The translations under genes were made by a program, and so were the position numbers. 54,393 nucleotides of DNA from Gammaproteobacteria bacterium (lineage in GTDB: Bacteria; Pseudomonadota; Gammaproteobacteria; S012-40), in contig JALUUH010000038.1 in the NCBI GenBank assembly GCA_027021445.1, positions 1 to 54,393 of the forward strand, in the 5' to 3' direction. The notes beneath the pieces are model-generated. The model did not search any database. It saw only the letters and a list, made by a program, of their open reading frames with translations, and was not told the DNA's origin. Numbering within the stretch: the first letter of the stretch is position 1; each line of letters starts with the position of its first letter. Positions 47,488 through 54,393 of this stretch are shown one piece after another.

Positions 47488-47566
47488 CCTAGGAGCCTGT
47501 CCGAGAACAGCGATCGTAGCGAGGGCAAACCATTTGGGTCAGTCTATTCTCGGACAGGCTCCTAGG
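47488..47566. repeat. Dispersed repeat element, 79-bp copy
   Basis: Ends CCTAGGAGCCTGTCCGAGAA (47488 on) and, inverted, TTCTCGGACAGGCTCCTAGG (to 47566), 23 bases each with one mismatch. The interior has CGATCGTAGCGAGGGCAAAC, as in the copy at 17841, but lacks about 80 bases of its central inverted repeat. It lies five bases after the hemN stop and 24 bases before the ABC transporter start. Confidence 0.8.
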
Positions 47567-47590: not shown

Positions 47591-49375
47591 ATGTCGCCAC
47601 CTATTAAATACACCGAAACACCTAATAGCAAAGGTAACGATTGGTATAACGTTAAAAAATTGCTGCCTTATCTGTGGGAGTATAAAGGCCGTGTAATCAT
47701 CGCATTGTTATGCCTAATCCTCGCCAAAGTCGCTAATGTCGGTGTCCCCATTATATTACGCGACATTGTGAATAGCTTAGACATTAGCCTTCATCAAACC
47801 CTGGTACTGCCGGTATTACTCCTCATGATTTACGGTGCCTTGCGTATTTCAAGCGCACTCTTTAATGAGCTACGTGATGTATTATTCACCCGAGTGCGTT
47901 ATCGGGCGATGAGAAGAATAACCATCCTCACGATGGAGCATTTACACAATTTATCATTGCGCTTTCATCTAGAACGAAAAACCGGGGCCATTAGTCGAGA
48001 CCTGCAACGCGGTGCAACCAGTCTAAGTTCATTATTGAATTATTTCACTTTTAGCATCATTCCTGTCATCGTTGAGCTTTTATTAGTTGCTGGGTTTTTG
48101 CTTTATTCGTATGACGGAATATTTACCTTAATCATTTTTTCATGTATCGCTGTGTATATCGCCTTCACGCTTGCTGTTATGAATTGGCGCCTATCGCATC
48201 GACAAGAAATGAATAAACACGAATCCAATGCGAATAATATTGCCATTGACAGCTTGATTAACTATGAAACCGTTAAGTATTTTAATAACGAAGAACTAGA
48301 GCGTAGTCGCACCGACAAACATTTAGAGAACTGGGAAAACAGCGGAGTTTTAACTCAAACTTCAATGTCCATACTCAACTTTGGACAGGCTGCCATTATT
48401 GCAGTTGGCGTAACCATCGTCATGTTCTTTGCCGCCAACCAAGTTGCTACCGGGGTAATGACACTGGGTGACCTTGTTCTCGTAAATGCCTTTTTATTAC
48501 AACTTTTCATTCCATTGGGGTTTCTTGGCATAATCTATCGGCAAATTAGATATTCTCTGACTGATATGGAGAACTTAGTTCATCTATTGGAAGAGCAACC
48601 CGAAATCAAGGACAAAAAGAACGCTAAAAATTTATCGGTCAAACAAGGAGAAGTTAAATTCAATCATGTTGATTTTTCCTATTCGAAACAACGACCTATC
48701 CTAAAAAACATTAGCTTTACGATAAAACCCGGAGAAAAAATTGCGCTCGTCGGTGCAAGCGGAGCCGGAAAATCAACGATAGCGAGACTTTTATTCCGAT
48801 TCTATGAGGTAGGCAATGGCTCAATAACGATTGACGGACAAAACATCGCCGAGGTAAACCAGCAAAGCCTTAGAAAAAACATAGGTATCGTCCCCCAAGA
48901 CACCGTTTTATTTAATGAAAGTATTTACTATAATTTGTCTTACGCAAAAGCAAATGCGACAAAAGCTGAAATTTACCACGCCGCTAAAATGGCGAATATC
49001 CATGATTTTATTCAAAGCCTACCGGACACTTACGACACCGTAGTTGGTGAACGAGGGCTTAAACTTTCAGGCGGTGAAAAACAGCGTATTGCAATCGCGC
49101 GAATTATCCTAAAAGCCCCTAAAATACTGATATTTGATGAAGCAACATCCGCGCTAGACACACGTTCAGAGCAAAGTATTTTAACCGAACTGAGACAGGC
49201 TGCAATCAACCACTCAACGCTAGTCATTGCACATAGGCTTTCGACGATTGTTGATGCCGATGAAATCATGGTACTTGAAAATGGTGAAATTATAGAGCAA
49301 GGCACTCATGAGGTCTTAATGAAAAACCAACAAAATTATTTCAATATGTGGCAACTTCAGCTACAGGAATCCTAG
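47591..49375 (+). CDS. ATM1/HMT1-type ABC exporter
   Basis: A 594-residue half-transporter with six transmembrane helices (about residues 25-320) and a nucleotide-binding domain. Walker A is ALVGASGAGKSTIARLLF, the signature is KLSGGEKQRIAIARI, Walker B is ILIFDEATSALD, and the switch His is in LVIAHRLSTI. NNIAIDSLINYETVKYFNNE is the ATM1-family segment; relatives export glutathione-linked or metal compounds. The C-terminus is unusual: TAG at 49373 is supplied by the CCTAGGAGG end of a repeat, so the original terminus may have differed. Confidence 0.93.
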   Translation: MSPPIKYTETPNSKGNDWYNVKKLLPYLWEYKGRVIIALLCLILAKVANVGVPIILRDIVNSLDISLHQTLVLPVLLLMIYGALRISSALFNELRDVLFTRVRYRAMRRITILTMEHLHNLSLRFHLERKTGAISRDLQRGATSLSSLLNYFTFSIIPVIVELLLVAGFLLYSYDGIFTLIIFSCIAVYIAFTLAVMNWRLSHRQEMNKHESNANNIAIDSLINYETVKYFNNEELERSRTDKHLENWENSGVLTQTSMSILNFGQAAIIAVGVTIVMFFAANQVATGVMTLGDLVLVNAFLLQLFIPLGFLGIIYRQIRYSLTDMENLVHLLEEQPEIKDKKNAKNLSVKQGEVKFNHVDFSYSKQRPILKNISFTIKPGEKIALVGASGAGKSTIARLLFRFYEVGNGSITIDGQNIAEVNQQSLRKNIGIVPQDTVLFNESIYYNLSYAKANATKAEIYHAAKMANIHDFIQSLPDTYDTVVGERGLKLSGGEKQRIAIARIILKAPKILIFDEATSALDTRSEQSILTELRQAAINHSTLVIAHRLSTIVDADEIMVLENGEIIEQGTHEVLMKNQQNYFNMWQLQLQES

Positions 49376-49396: not shown

Positions 49397-49909
49397 TTAG
49401 CTATATTTCTTAATAATAGACCAGGCTTTAAGCTTCTCTGGTTTTGATAACATCGCCATAGCGGGGCTGGTTGAGGGCAGCCTGAACGATAAAAAATCCT
49501 TTGCTTCTGCATTATTAAGCCTAGGCAACACATGTTTATGATATTCAGCCTCTGCTTTAGTACCATTGAAAAAAATCGATTTTATCAATGGATAGCTTTG
49601 ATAAAAAAGACTGAATTCATTCACGATTGTTGATTTATTATCAATCGATGAATCAAGACTGCCTTTTCTTTTACACGTTTTGATCACATCCCAAACAGCC
49701 ACTCTATTATTCAACAATTTTTCGACCCGCTCTTGGTAGCTCAGCGCCAAATCAAAAGTAAATAACTCAGCCATAATATACCAAAAGCTGTTCTGGGGAT
49801 GGGCATAGTATTGCCTCTGAGCAAGAGACTTTTCACTCGGCATAGAGCCAAGAATAAGTATGCGTGCTTCTTTATCCACCAAAGGAGGAAAACCAAACGC
49901 TGTATTCAT
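49397..49909 (-). CDS. Family-6 hypoxanthine/uracil-DNA glycosylase
   Basis: A 170-residue glycosylase of the HDG (UDG family 6) type that removes deaminated bases such as hypoxanthine. It has ILILGSMPSEKSLAQRQYYA with the family Ser and Asn (HPQNSFW), and the product-loop motif RLPSTSPAMAM. It begins MNTAFGFPPLVDKEARILIL. It is convergent with the ABC transporter gene. Confidence 0.88.
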   Translation of the reverse strand: MNTAFGFPPLVDKEARILILGSMPSEKSLAQRQYYAHPQNSFWYIMAELFTFDLALSYQERVEKLLNNRVAVWDVIKTCKRKGSLDSSIDNKSTIVNEFSLFYQSYPLIKSIFFNGTKAEAEYHKHVLPRLNNAEAKDFLSFRLPSTSPAMAMLSKPEKLKAWSIIKKYS

Positions 49910-50416: not shown

Positions 50417-50503
50417 CCTAGGAGCCTGCCCGAGAACAGACTGACCTACTACGAACAAACCTGATTGCGCTCGTAACGATCGCTGTTCTCGGACAGGCTC
50501 CTG
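50417..50503. repeat. Dispersed repeat element, 87-bp copy
   Basis: The left end GGAGCCTGCCCGAGAACAG (50421-50439) and the right end CTGTTCTCGGACAGGCTCC (50483-50501) are inverted repeats with one mismatch. Read on the minus strand, the interior (CGATCGTTACGAGCGCAATC and GTAGTAGGTCAGTCTG) matches the copy at 17841, so it is inserted in the opposite orientation. It lies between the small membrane protein and the TPR-barrel gene. Confidence 0.8.
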
Positions 50504-50529: not shown

Positions 50530-52041
50530 ATGAACATAATAGCGGCTCTATATGTAATCACTGCTCTCACGATTAGTATATTACCGCAACCTGTGACGGC
50601 GCAAACAAATGACTTCGGTTCAGCGATTGCCGAATATAACGCCGATAATTACGAAGAAGCTCTAGACATCCTATTGGCTAACAATGAGACAACTCGATCT
50701 ATCGATGAAACAATATTACTTGGGCTTAGCTATTTTAATCTACTCAATTTCAGCGATGCCTTATCTCACCTCGAAATTGCACTCAATGCAACAGCAACCA
50801 ACCGTCAATTAGAAATTGACGGTAACCTGGCCTTAATCGAAATCTATTTAGCGAAATCTGAGTTAGAAAAGGCGAGTCATTTACTCCATAGAGTTAAAAT
50901 CAAGCATCCCATTCATCGCGCGCAAAAAAACTTTCTAAAGGGCGAGTTAAGCCTCGCCGAAAACCGCCAAAAGGACGCTATTTACCACTATAGCAAAGCT
51001 AAAGAACAAAACCCTTCACTCATACCCGCAGCCAATTTCAAAATTTCCCAAGCCTATGTGCAAAACCACCAGCTGAGCAAGGCGAAAAACCTTCTATCAC
51101 AAACACTTAAACTATATCCGGATAGATTTGAGTCTGGGCAATTACGTCACAGTTTAAAAGAGATCAAAAGACTTGAAAAACATCGCTTTGTAGCACAATT
51201 AGGCTATCGCATTGAATATGACAGCAATGTCGCCTTATACCCCGATGACGACACCATTACTCCCCGTAATTTTAGTAGCGGGAAACAGGATTTTCGTAAT
51301 ACTTTTACCGCTGATACTATCTTCAAAAAAAATCTAGGCACAAATTGGCGTCTACATTCCGAGGGACATTTTTACCAAAGCCTTCTCCCTGACCTCGAAA
51401 ACTATAATGAAACACGTTTTACATTTGCAACTAGCCCCACCTATAACAAAAATAACTGGAAGATTCATTTACCTTTAGAATGGAGCTATGCCAAACGCCG
51501 TCAAAACAATAATGAGCGTACGGTGGGCGTACTTCCGGGCATTACTTATACGCTCAACAATGGGATCAATCTACATCCCTATCTTAACTACCAAATGATA
51601 TCGTTCGATACCCCAAGTATTGAAAATGAAGATAGAAGCGGCAACTTCATCGGTACCGGGCTGTTAGCACTATTACCATTTGACAGCCGACAAGGCCTCA
51701 TTCGAGTCCTCGTGCAGTATGGCAACAACAATACGAAGGGAAGCAATTGGGATAATACGGAAACCAATTTCACTAGTCAGTTTCATTATGCAATTTGGCC
51801 AGAAATTTTTGCCAATATTAGCTACCAATATCTCAATAGCGCGTATAAAAACTTGCATCCCCTTGAGCTACTAAAGAGAAGAGATAGTGCTCATTTAGTA
51901 ATGGCTAAACTGGAATTAAAATTCTGGAAGAACTGGGCAGTATATGGACAAGCGACTTACGTGGAAAACAACTCTAGTATTGCAATTTATGATAACTCCC
52001 GGCGTGTCGTATCCGTCGGTGGCTACTGGCATATAAGATGA
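50530..52041 (+). CDS. TPR-domain outer-membrane beta-barrel protein
   Basis: A 503-residue protein in three parts: a signal peptide (residues 1-24, ending VTAQ), a periplasmic TPR solenoid (about 30-215, for example YNADNYEEALDILLANNE and FLKGELSLAENRQKDAIYHY), and a barrel (about 220-503) opening VAQLGYRIEYDSNVALYPDD and ending VVSVGGYWHIR. The architecture recalls Slam and other TPR-barrel secretion pores, but the final residue is not aromatic and the match to Slam is not strong. It overlaps the FecR gene (ATGA) and is followed by an adhesin gene, which suggests a role in exporting or anchoring it. Confidence 0.8.
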   Translation: MNIIAALYVITALTISILPQPVTAQTNDFGSAIAEYNADNYEEALDILLANNETTRSIDETILLGLSYFNLLNFSDALSHLEIALNATATNRQLEIDGNLALIEIYLAKSELEKASHLLHRVKIKHPIHRAQKNFLKGELSLAENRQKDAIYHYSKAKEQNPSLIPAANFKISQAYVQNHQLSKAKNLLSQTLKLYPDRFESGQLRHSLKEIKRLEKHRFVAQLGYRIEYDSNVALYPDDDTITPRNFSSGKQDFRNTFTADTIFKKNLGTNWRLHSEGHFYQSLLPDLENYNETRFTFATSPTYNKNNWKIHLPLEWSYAKRRQNNNERTVGVLPGITYTLNNGINLHPYLNYQMISFDTPSIENEDRSGNFIGTGLLALLPFDSRQGLIRVLVQYGNNNTKGSNWDNTETNFTSQFHYAIWPEIFANISYQYLNSAYKNLHPLELLKRRDSAHLVMAKLELKFWKNWAVYGQATYVENNSSIAIYDNSRRVVSVGGYWHIR

Positions 52042-52805
52042 ACTTAATAAAAAACGCTTACCCTCTCATTGTTATTTTACTGATTTTTTCCAGCGGATCT
52101 GCGTATGCAGAAGCAGTAGGCAAAGTTACTAGCCTATTTGGAACAGCTGATTACACTCGCCAAGGACAGCCGAGTAAAAAGATTAGCATTGGAGATATCA
52201 TCGAAAAGCAAGATATCATTAGAACAAAACGAAACTCCCGGCTTGAAATCACGTTTAACGATGGCAGCAAAATCACCTTAGCCCAACGAACACGAATGAT
52301 TGTTGAAAATTATATAACGGGCGAACACGCAAATGCACTTTTCAGTGTAACTCGAGGAAAAATCCGCGCCTTTGTTACCGATACATTTTCCAATAGAAAA
52401 GAATCATTTAGAACTCGATCTAAAACCGCAATTGCCGGAGTACAAGGTACCGACTACGAAATGCACTCTTCGGGCTTAGGTACACAAGTCATTGTACATA
52501 AAGGACTGGTATCCTTTCAAAGTCTTGAGCCTAATATACCGCTCGTGCAACTATTACGCAGTGGCGAGTCCGCGCTTATACGCGCCTCCTTGCCTCCGAT
52601 TGCAATACATCAATCCAGCGGCTTAGCACGCTCTATCAAAGAAACAGAAAAGTCAGAGCACGCTAACAATAATTTGAACTCAGAGATTAACAGTGGCAGT
52701 ATGCAAGATCTGATCGCATCAGGATTTCAGACCCAAAATCCAAACAGCCTCACACCACAAAAAAATGTCCTTATCATACTACCTCCCGAACCTAACTTAC
52801 CATGA
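52038..52805 (+). CDS. FecR-domain periplasmic protein
   Basis: A 255-residue exported protein. The signal peptide covers residues 1-24 (LIVILLIFSSGSAYA). The FecR domain (about 30-175) has GDIIEKQDIIRTKRNSRLEI, TLAQRTRMIVENY, FSVTRGKIRAFVTDTF and SKTAIAGVQGTDYEM, the usual signature of free-standing FecR proteins without a sigma-factor partner. The C-terminal 80 residues are low-complexity and probably unfolded. It is translationally coupled to the TPR-barrel gene and ends ten bases before the best start of the adhesin. Confidence 0.9.
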   Translation: MNLIKNAYPLIVILLIFSSGSAYAEAVGKVTSLFGTADYTRQGQPSKKISIGDIIEKQDIIRTKRNSRLEITFNDGSKITLAQRTRMIVENYITGEHANALFSVTRGKIRAFVTDTFSNRKESFRTRSKTAIAGVQGTDYEMHSSGLGTQVIVHKGLVSFQSLEPNIPLVQLLRSGESALIRASLPPIAIHQSSGLARSIKETEKSEHANNNLNSEINSGSMQDLIASGFQTQNPNSLTPQKNVLIILPPEPNLP

Positions 52806-52814
52806 CCGATATCA

Positions 52815-54393
52815 ATGATAAAGCAGACTAATAAAACTCATAGAGACCTTTGCACAAAAACTATTTTTCGTGCAAAGGTCTCTCATATTAAGGAAAGCCG
52901 AAGCACAAATCTTATGCTTCGTTTATGGGTGAGCATGAGCTTAGCATTCCTAACGACGCTTTCTGTAGCTGCCGAAATTTCTTGGACAGGCGAAGGAAAT
53001 ACGCGTAACTGGAATAATGCGGCGAATTGGAACGGAGAAATTCCGGGAGCTAATGATGATGTCATTATCTCTGATGATCAACCAGACGCAATCATCATTA
53101 GTGACGATATTGTCGTTAAAAGCTTGCAATTAAACCGCGCAAACCTTGAAGTATCAAATTCGTTCACAATAAATGGCGCTTTTGTTTGGAGTAGTGGCGC
53201 ACTATCGGGTAATGGAAAAACGTATTTAAAGGGAATGAGTGAGTTTTCATCGAAAAGCTCTGTATTAAATCAAAATCTTGAGCTTATTAATAACGGAATA
53301 TTGAACTGGAAGGGTAAACAAATCATCTTAAATGATGATTCTAAACTTACAAATTCTGCAACAGGTAAATTTATATTTTCAAGCAATGCTACGAGCTTTT
53401 TTTCTGGCACCGGCCTATTTGTCAATGACGGGCTTATGAAAAACCATGCTGAAAAAAAACAAAATATAGAGATACATACCCGATTTAATAACAATGCATT
53501 AATTCAGCTGCTGACAAATTACACAGATAGCTATACGAATATCTCACTGTATGGGGATGGCATGCATTTAGGGGTTTTTGATCTCGGAGCAGAAAATTCA
53601 GGAATACTTACATTTGCAAGTGGTACACATGCCATTGGTTCTACAAGAAATATTTTAGGTGATGCCACGCAAACGCCTGTTTTTTTATCGAGTGCCGTTG
53701 TAACATTTACTGAACAGCGACTATTGCAAACCGGAACAACAGACGAGGTATTAGTGGATGCTGGGCCACTGGAAATTTCCAGCATTTTTTCATCAAATAA
53801 CTTTAATGTAGCCACAAGTATAGAGGGTGCTTCCACTTCACTCATTTATACACCTGATCCAGAATATCTTGGCGCCGACAGCCTCAGTTATTCAATAACA
53901 CCCGCTAATGAAAACATCAACGCATTTATTCATTACACAATCATTGATTTTTCACTCGATAATAACGAAATTGCAGAAAATGCAACAATCGTCGGCACAT
54001 TGTCTTCTACGGACCCAGATGCCGGTGGTAGCGCAAATCATATATATTCATTGATAGATTCAAACTCTCCATTTGAGATTGACGGCAATCAATTAATTGT
54101 TTCAGCATCGGCCAGCTTGGATTTTGAAACCACACCGCAATATCAAATCACTATTGAGGTTTCGGATGGTCTTCTAACGCTGCAACAAATGTTCACCATC
54201 AATGTAACGAATATCAACGAAGCTCCCTCAAGCTTAACTCTCAGCAATTCATCCATTGCAGAAAACGCAACAATCGTCGGCACATTGTCTTCTACGGACC
54301 CAGATGCCGGTGGTAGCGCAAATCATATATATTCATTGATAGATTCAAACTCTCCATTTGAGATTGACGGCAATCAATTAATTGTTTCAGCAT
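52815..54393 (+). CDS. Giant cadherin-repeat surface adhesin, 5' part
   Basis: The frame is open from 52815 to the window edge, 526 codons so far. From residue 34 there is a signal peptide (LRLWVSMSLAFLTTLSVAAE). The mature start ISWTGEGNTRNWNNAANWNG is the opening repeat of beta-helix surface proteins. A beta-rich region follows up to about residue 350 with a YTPDPEYLGADSLSY motif as in VCBS-like domains, then cadherin-like repeats of 95 residues (IAENATIVGTLSSTDPDAGG). Two starts are possible: ATG at 52815 (long n-region, close to FecR) or ATG at 52914. The longer one carries an in-frame 15-codon insertion made by the repeat at 52838. The gene is cut by the window edge. Confidence 0.85.
   Translation, partial: MIKQTNKTHRDLCTKTIFRAKVSHIKESRSTNLMLRLWVSMSLAFLTTLSVAAEISWTGEGNTRNWNNAANWNGEIPGANDDVIISDDQPDAIIISDDIVVKSLQLNRANLEVSNSFTINGAFVWSSGALSGNGKTYLKGMSEFSSKSSVLNQNLELINNGILNWKGKQIILNDDSKLTNSATGKFIFSSNATSFFSGTGLFVNDGLMKNHAEKKQNIEIHTRFNNNALIQLLTNYTDSYTNISLYGDGMHLGVFDLGAENSGILTFASGTHAIGSTRNILGDATQTPVFLSSAVVTFTEQRLLQTGTTDEVLVDAGPLEISSIFSSNNFNVATSIEGASTSLIYTPDPEYLGADSLSYSITPANENINAFIHYTIIDFSLDNNEIAENATIVGTLSSTDPDAGGSANHIYSLIDSNSPFEIDGNQLIVSASASLDFETTPQYQITIEVSDGLLTLQQMFTINVTNINEAPSSLTLSNSSIAENATIVGTLSSTDPDAGGSANHIYSLIDSNSPFEIDGNQLIVSA
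52838..52887. repeat. Back-to-back IS-like terminal repeats with TCATA duplication
   Basis: A 40-base near-perfect palindrome, GAGACCTTTGCACAAAAA at 52843-52860 and TTTTTCGTGCAAAGGTCTC to 52882. It is flanked by identical TCATA at 52838-52842 and 52883-52887. The ends resemble IS5-group termini beginning GAGACCTTTGCA. It has no room for a transposase. It adds 45 bases (15 codons) to the adhesin reading frame. Confidence 0.75.
53970..54393 (+). repeat. Tandem 285-base cadherin-domain repeat
   Basis: ATTGCAGAAAATGCAACAAT at 53970 recurs at 54255, a period of 285 bases (95 codons). Over the 139 bases available to the window edge the two units differ at one base (T at 53981, C at 54266, silent). 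More units probably follow beyond the window. Confidence 0.9.

Follow-up and report, generated by a model that had tools for sequence, protein, structure and literature searches.

The last 3.9 kb of the window (the whole 54,393-nucleotide contig G000:C38, from an assembly of 2.65 Mb in 240 contigs that is 67% complete) contain three consecutive open reading frames (ORFs) on the + strand, which encode a TPR outer-membrane barrel, a FecR-domain protein and a cadherin-repeat protein. We propose that they constitute a FecR-coupled, Slam-like surface-display operon in which the barrel is the translocon, the cadherin protein its substrate and FecR an anchor or adaptor, a reading that we consider probable on balance. 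Its observed basis is a gene order that is conserved, a barrel remotely homologous to Slam, and a FecR protein that resembles other domains in two respects. The features of the operon are as follows.

50530..52041, + strand: protein of 503 amino acids with TPR domain and 14-strand outer-membrane barrel, candidate translocon resembling Slam and the type XI secretion system (T11SS) (ORF; Pfam TPR matches; AlphaFold 2 model; clade profile match to Slam)
50611..51180, + strand: periplasmic TPR domain of this protein, residues 28-217 (Pfam TPR matches; AlphaFold 2 model)
51181..52038, + strand: 14-strand beta-barrel domain of this protein, residues 218-503 (AlphaFold 2 model; hhalign)
52038..52805, + strand: exported FecR-domain protein of 255 amino acids, without anti-sigma domains (ORF; Pfam; ATGA overlap with the barrel gene)
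52215..52511, + strand: PF04773 FecR domain, residues 60-158 (E 2.6e-13)
52116..52313, + strand: stretch resembling a LapA-type retention module, residues 27-92 (NF033682, E 8.4e-5, below cut-off; family profile against PDB 5ix9, 4.2e-6)
52914..54393, + strand: cadherin-repeat surface protein, incomplete at the contig end (start probably at ATG 52914, otherwise at ATG 52815)
53673..53909, + strand: Big_9-like domain, sub-threshold (PF17963, E 0.002)
53967..54393, + strand: pair of near-identical cadherin repeats, of which the second breaks off with the contig (Pfam; repeat alignment)

The original prediction had described a TPR barrel, a FecR and a cadherin protein gene on one strand, the first two joined by an ATGA overlap, with no sigma factor and no type I transporter in sight. 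The ORFs and their Pfam matches agree with this arrangement: the ORF at 52038-52805 overlaps that at 50530-52041 by ATGA, and the third remains open past the contig end. No sigma factor gene adjoins the trio in the window, and no type I set was seen beside it.

Fifteen loci show the order barrel, FecR and large repeat protein; they come from nine gammaproteobacterial genomes and a single contig of Nitrospirota (the window, L042, L094, L063 in Nitrospirota, L049, L057, L095, L104, L058, L060 in the window's own genome, L194, L195, L196, L200 and L213). FecR homologues were drawn from 274 gammaproteobacterial genomes and their neighbourhoods were then read, which yielded the trio order in G112 (barrel 5e-49), twice in G250, and in G005. 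A genome scan showed the Nitrospirota contig to encode a barrel (2.8e-35), a FecR (1.5e-26) and a large exported protein. Further search rounds added loci in G327, G094 and G165, L060, second loci in G112, G327 and G005, and loci in G050 and G123. The genome scan, made on the species collection with a barrel pair profile and dependent on conserved peptides, returned three loci only, including the Nitrospirota trio; the full barrel profile in 369 genomes returned mostly generic TPR proteins, the useful matches being those that covered the barrel. Since the same order recurs in relatives, the co-orientation of the trio is more than chance.

The three genes are also tightly packed. Barrel and FecR genes overlap by 4-13 bases in the window and at L042, L049, L057, L058, L095 and L104, and the gene for the large protein in turn overlaps FecR at L049 and L058. 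Within the window's branch, the large protein comes next at each of the seven loci where this could be judged. At L060 and L213 a gene for 140 amino acids lies between it and FecR. The partner proteins of relatives are 830-2502 amino acids long; in those scanned, the repeats are of the Big_9, cadherin, PKD, HYR, FG-GAP or He_PIG type. Lipoboxes occur in the partners at L049, L057, L058, L095, L104, L194, L195, L196 and L200; lipoproteins are the usual class of Slam substrates. The partners in the window and at L042, L094 and L063 resemble ordinary Sec substrates. Adjacency in relatives had been named as a check of the original prediction, and the genes proved adjacent in relatives. The idea of a dedicated unit of barrel, FecR and adhesin is well supported, as its order is conserved across both phyla and its genes overlap or nearly touch.

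The AlphaFold model of the window barrel (17 sequences, mean predicted local distance difference test score, pLDDT, 88) comprises helices at residues 28-217 followed by 14 strands at residues 220-502, which is the architecture of Slam proteins, an N-terminal TPR domain and a 14-strand barrel. When profiles of the barrel alone were compared by hhalign, that of the window's clade matched ten true Slam barrels with a probability of 93.9% (E 1.5e-7, 265 columns) and that of the sister clade with 99.3%; TpsB, autotransporter and porin controls reached at most 0.6%. PF04575 (SlipAM) was matched by 7 of 17 relatives of the window barrel. In a scan of 321 genomes with this model, FecR adjoined 13 of 15 weak (remote Slam-like) matches and none of the 14 strong Slam matches. 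A quick tree split the Slams from the FecR-coupled barrels (support 99) and grouped the window barrel with those of L042 and L094 (95), then with that of L063 (81); the deeper branching order is unsure because the branches are long. Judged by these profiles, the window barrel is a distant relative of Slam. The original prediction had set the system apart from Slam; the barrel proves to be remotely homologous to it, and the FecR-coupled barrels occupy their own side of the tree.

The window FecR has its own signal peptide and a single PF04773 domain. No anti-sigma parts were detected in it by Pfam scan, and there is no adjacent extracytoplasmic function (ECF) sigma gene in the window. It thus shares with the FecR/PupR anti-sigma regulators the PF04773 domain and a PupR-like fold, the domain resembling the PupR signalling domain in structure comparison, but differs from them in being exported and in having neither a cytoplasmic anti-sigma part nor a sigma gene. 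Another resemblance concerns the first half of the protein, which throughout the family gives sub-cut-off matches to the LapA retention-module model. Among solved structures, the family profile finds PDB 5ix9 alone (4.2e-6), an antifreeze-protein domain labelled as a cell surface anchoring domain; it also came up in the structure comparison (root-mean-square deviation 1.0 over 63 columns). The likeness to the LapA/RTX retention module (NF033682) extends to sequence and fold; in contrast to that module, however, FecR is a separate protein here, the operon has no RTX array or type I transporter, and the adhesin has a Sec signal. The FecR C-termini of the window's branch (L042, L094, L049, L057 and the window) are proline-rich, with stretches such as LPPEPNLP, LPLPTQPNTP, VEVPLP and IHLPTP.

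In one sister branch FecR has an extra C-terminal lobe of about 240 amino acids. When 350 genomes were searched with this lobe by itself, almost all proteins found were FecR proteins, and most of these could be seen to adjoin the same barrels. Its TbpB-like nature was predicted from the sequence pattern before modelling. A model of the paralogue in the window's own genome (lobe pLDDT about 90) was matched by Foldseek to LbpB (1.2e-4), TbpB (1.7e-3) and again LbpB (7.7e-3), ranked after FecR structures; Foldseek does not say which part of the model was aligned, but a sub-threshold PF01298 match (E 0.15) and an hhalign probability of 47% point to the lobe. From this model, the C-terminal lobe of the sister loci, including the one in the own genome, looks TbpB/LbpB-like. 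TbpB and LbpB are classic Slam cargo. The own genome holds a third, degraded locus with barrel, FecR and lobe (L162, G000:C70), which consists of short ORFs with a Big_9-like stretch downstream.

The third ORF gives a cadherin match (PF00028, 2.4e-13), and its two repeats align with a local score of 137 over 139 bases. The 'giant cadherin adhesin' of the original prediction is borne out as regards its cadherin repeats; its size is only inferred since the contig ends inside a near-identical repeat, leaving 493-526 amino acids visible. Near-identical repeats are a common cause of assembly breaks, and a genome search did not find the rest of the gene on any other contig of the assembly. The start had been placed about ten bases after FecR. 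An ORF does begin there, nine bases past the end of FecR (ATG 52815), but this ATG has no visible ribosome-binding site and its frame crosses a 42-base near-palindrome. The signal peptide, MLRLWVSMSLAFLTTLSVAA, which is of Sec type by inspection, begins at ATG 52914, 108 bases after FecR, and this ATG is probably the translation start. The palindrome itself is as follows.

52842..52883, no strand: near-perfect palindrome with GAGACCTTTGCAC ends between FecR and the adhesin signal peptide (38/42 symmetric; fold z-score -5.5; other copies)

Two more copies of the GAGACCTTTGCAC end occur in the genome (G000:C79 and C138), one in a similar hairpin and one at the end of a longer element. The palindrome is the rarer of the repeats met here, occurring at the window site, at L003 and at L004; the longer form at L004 has similar ends, which suggests a decayed insertion element, and the window copy is probably a mobile-element remnant. 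As FecR and the large gene are spaced by 17-22 bases in the close relatives L042 and L094, the arrangement is most simply read as a tight operon that has received a small insertion.

Export of the adhesin by the barrel and the part played by FecR are proposed from genomic association together with sequence and structural resemblance. The TPR barrel would act as an outer-membrane translocon of Slam/type XI type in the broad sense, and the cadherin-repeat protein, with its Sec signal peptide, would be its substrate. FecR would be a dedicated export partner, probably an anchor or adaptor: it would contact the barrel and either retain the substrate or pass it on. This would be the trans counterpart of the cis function that type I-secreted adhesins owe to their N-terminal retention module. 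We put forward a more specific version only tentatively, as possible rather than probable: FecR, a retention module in trans, would be recognised by the Slam-like barrel (via the TbpB-like lobe where present) and would plug or anchor in it, so that the cadherin/Ig protein is exported and held at the surface through FecR. The trio would then represent a distinct FecR-dependent, type XI-like branch for giant adhesins.

Several observations weigh against the display proposal. The window barrel has no PF04575 match over cut-off by Pfam scan, and its sequence alone reaches only 3% against Slam, which is no convincing match. FecR-free TPR barrels (L105 and L111) are about equally close to Slam in the barrel profile comparison, and the superfamily is therefore wider than Slam. 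The top Foldseek match of the barrel is the polysaccharide exporter BcsC; its nearest solved structures are BcsC, CymA, PelB and OmpG, and Slam is not among the matches listed. The hhalign match of the lobe to TbpB is modest, 47% with the closest set and 9% with the full set (controls 0.1% or less), values on which we do not take a TbpB-like lobe as proven by sequence, and the window FecR has no such lobe. About twenty further loci hold the barrel-FecR pair without a large partner beside it. In the window, finally, the intervening palindrome may separate adhesin expression from that of FecR. The FecR-free barrels L105 and L111, from two genomes, adjoin genes that by appearance are nucleotidyltransferase and phosphotransferase-like.

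An unlikely alternative is a sensing system, in which a signal from the envelope or surface is picked up by FecR and the barrel and relayed to a CHASE2 nucleotide cyclase, the large protein being no more than a co-regulated adhesin with another export route. CHASE2 and cyclase genes adjoin four sister loci (L194, L199, L210 and L095), a published biofilm operon encodes a FecR-LysM protein with a CHASE2 kinase (PMC5192318), and the likeness of the FecR domain to the PupR signalling domain fits such a role. However, within the limits of the contig no cyclase or sigma gene adjoins the window trio, the large protein is present at every judged locus of the window's branch, and its gene overlaps FecR at two loci, as described above.

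That the barrel is instead a polysaccharide exporter of the BcsC/PgaA/PelB/EpsL kind, with the large protein a glycan-binding matrix protein and FecR an accessory, appears quite unlikely. These exporters share with the window barrel a TPR domain and an outer-membrane barrel. BcsC leads the fold matches and PelB is also listed, the TPR region weakly matches PgaA, and relatives give sub-cut-off matches to EpsL. Against this, the trio has different neighbours from the exporters: no glycosyltransferase or synthase gene lies beside it in the window, none is evident at the loci of relatives, and the conserved neighbours are repeat proteins. The barrel profile, moreover, aligns with Slam barrels.

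Type I (LapA/RTX-like) export of the adhesin, with the barrel-FecR pair as an unrelated neighbour, is very unlikely, although type I loci are known for cadherin/Big_9 adhesins (BapP, PMC12153261) and the adhesin C-terminus lies beyond the contig end, outside the assembly. The adhesin has a Sec signal peptide, and the adjacency of the trio is conserved. The original prediction had called the adhesin RTX-like, yet its visible part has no GGxGxD motif, and no RTX array was found in the complete partner proteins of relatives checked. An LssB/LapB-type ABC transporter over cut-off was not found in six of seven trio genomes. The nearest ABC gene of the window, at 47591-49375 and 1.2 kb upstream, scores below the cut-off of all type I models and was discarded as a candidate type I transporter. 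The proposal that FecR tethers the system to peptidoglycan or senses passage of the substrate, made in the original prediction, is highly improbable and found no direct support: other operons encode FecR-LysM fusions (PMC5192318), but no LysM, OmpA-like or other peptidoglycan-binding domain was found in the window FecR or in scanned relatives.

With the display operon as the preferred reading, the closest known system is Slam/type XI (DUF560, PF04575; PMC8406197, PMC9090332, PMC12282271). Both have the N-terminal TPR domain and 14-strand barrel with detectable barrel homology, and in both the gene for the cargo, here a proposed one, lies beside the barrel and often encodes a lipoprotein; the sister loci, unlike the window FecR, also show a TbpB-like lobe. 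They differ in that the window barrel is below PF04575 detection, that FecR is a frequent fixed neighbour here but absent beside all 14 strong Slam matches, that the TbpB-like lobe is located on FecR and not on a separate cargo, and that the proposed cargo here is a long Ig/cadherin protein. Two-partner secretion (ShlB/FhaC) loci with a FecR neighbour (L048, L056 and L043) likewise combine a giant exoprotein, FecR and a barrel, but ShlB/FhaC barrels are of the POTRA/Omp85 type, in contrast to the TPR type of the window barrel. Membership of the window barrel in two-partner secretion was rejected, as it lacks POTRA domains and a ShlB barrel. FecR was also observed beside two-partner (ShlB) loci with exoproteins of 1204-2668 amino acids and beside an autotransporter-type barrel (L048, L056, L043 and L061); because it adjoins both kinds of barrel, FecR may accompany the export of giant exoproteins more generally.

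The main texts of two T11SS genomic papers make no mention of FecR, and no report linking it with Slam-like barrels was found in the open-access literature searched. The trio thus looks like a branch of known protein-display machinery that was not previously described. The BapP study poses the problem of how a Sec-signal cadherin/Big_9 adhesin crosses the outer membrane (PMC12153261), and the conserved barrel-FecR-adhesin operon offers a concrete, testable route for large Sec-dependent cadherin/Ig adhesins without RTX signals. If true, it would extend the Slam/type XI family to long surface proteins, point to a role for a large class of sigma-less FecR proteins, and link accessory parts of different exporters, namely the retention module, FecR and the TbpB lobe.

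Two further features lie upstream of the operon, the first of them a repeat just ahead of the barrel gene.

50420..50502, no strand: palindromic repeat of a dispersed family, shortly before the barrel gene and not operon-specific (64 genome matches per strand)

The repeat also occurs at 47493-47561 and at about 60 other sites in the genome, and with its GAGCCTGTCCGAGAACAG ends the family looks like one of miniature inverted-repeat transposable elements (MITEs) or is similar to repetitive extragenic palindromic (REP) sequences. Given its 64 matches on each strand, the hairpin is not taken as a regulator of the operon. On the opposite strand, at 49397-49909, lies a DNA-deoxyinosine glycosylase gene (TIGR04274, 3.4e-50).

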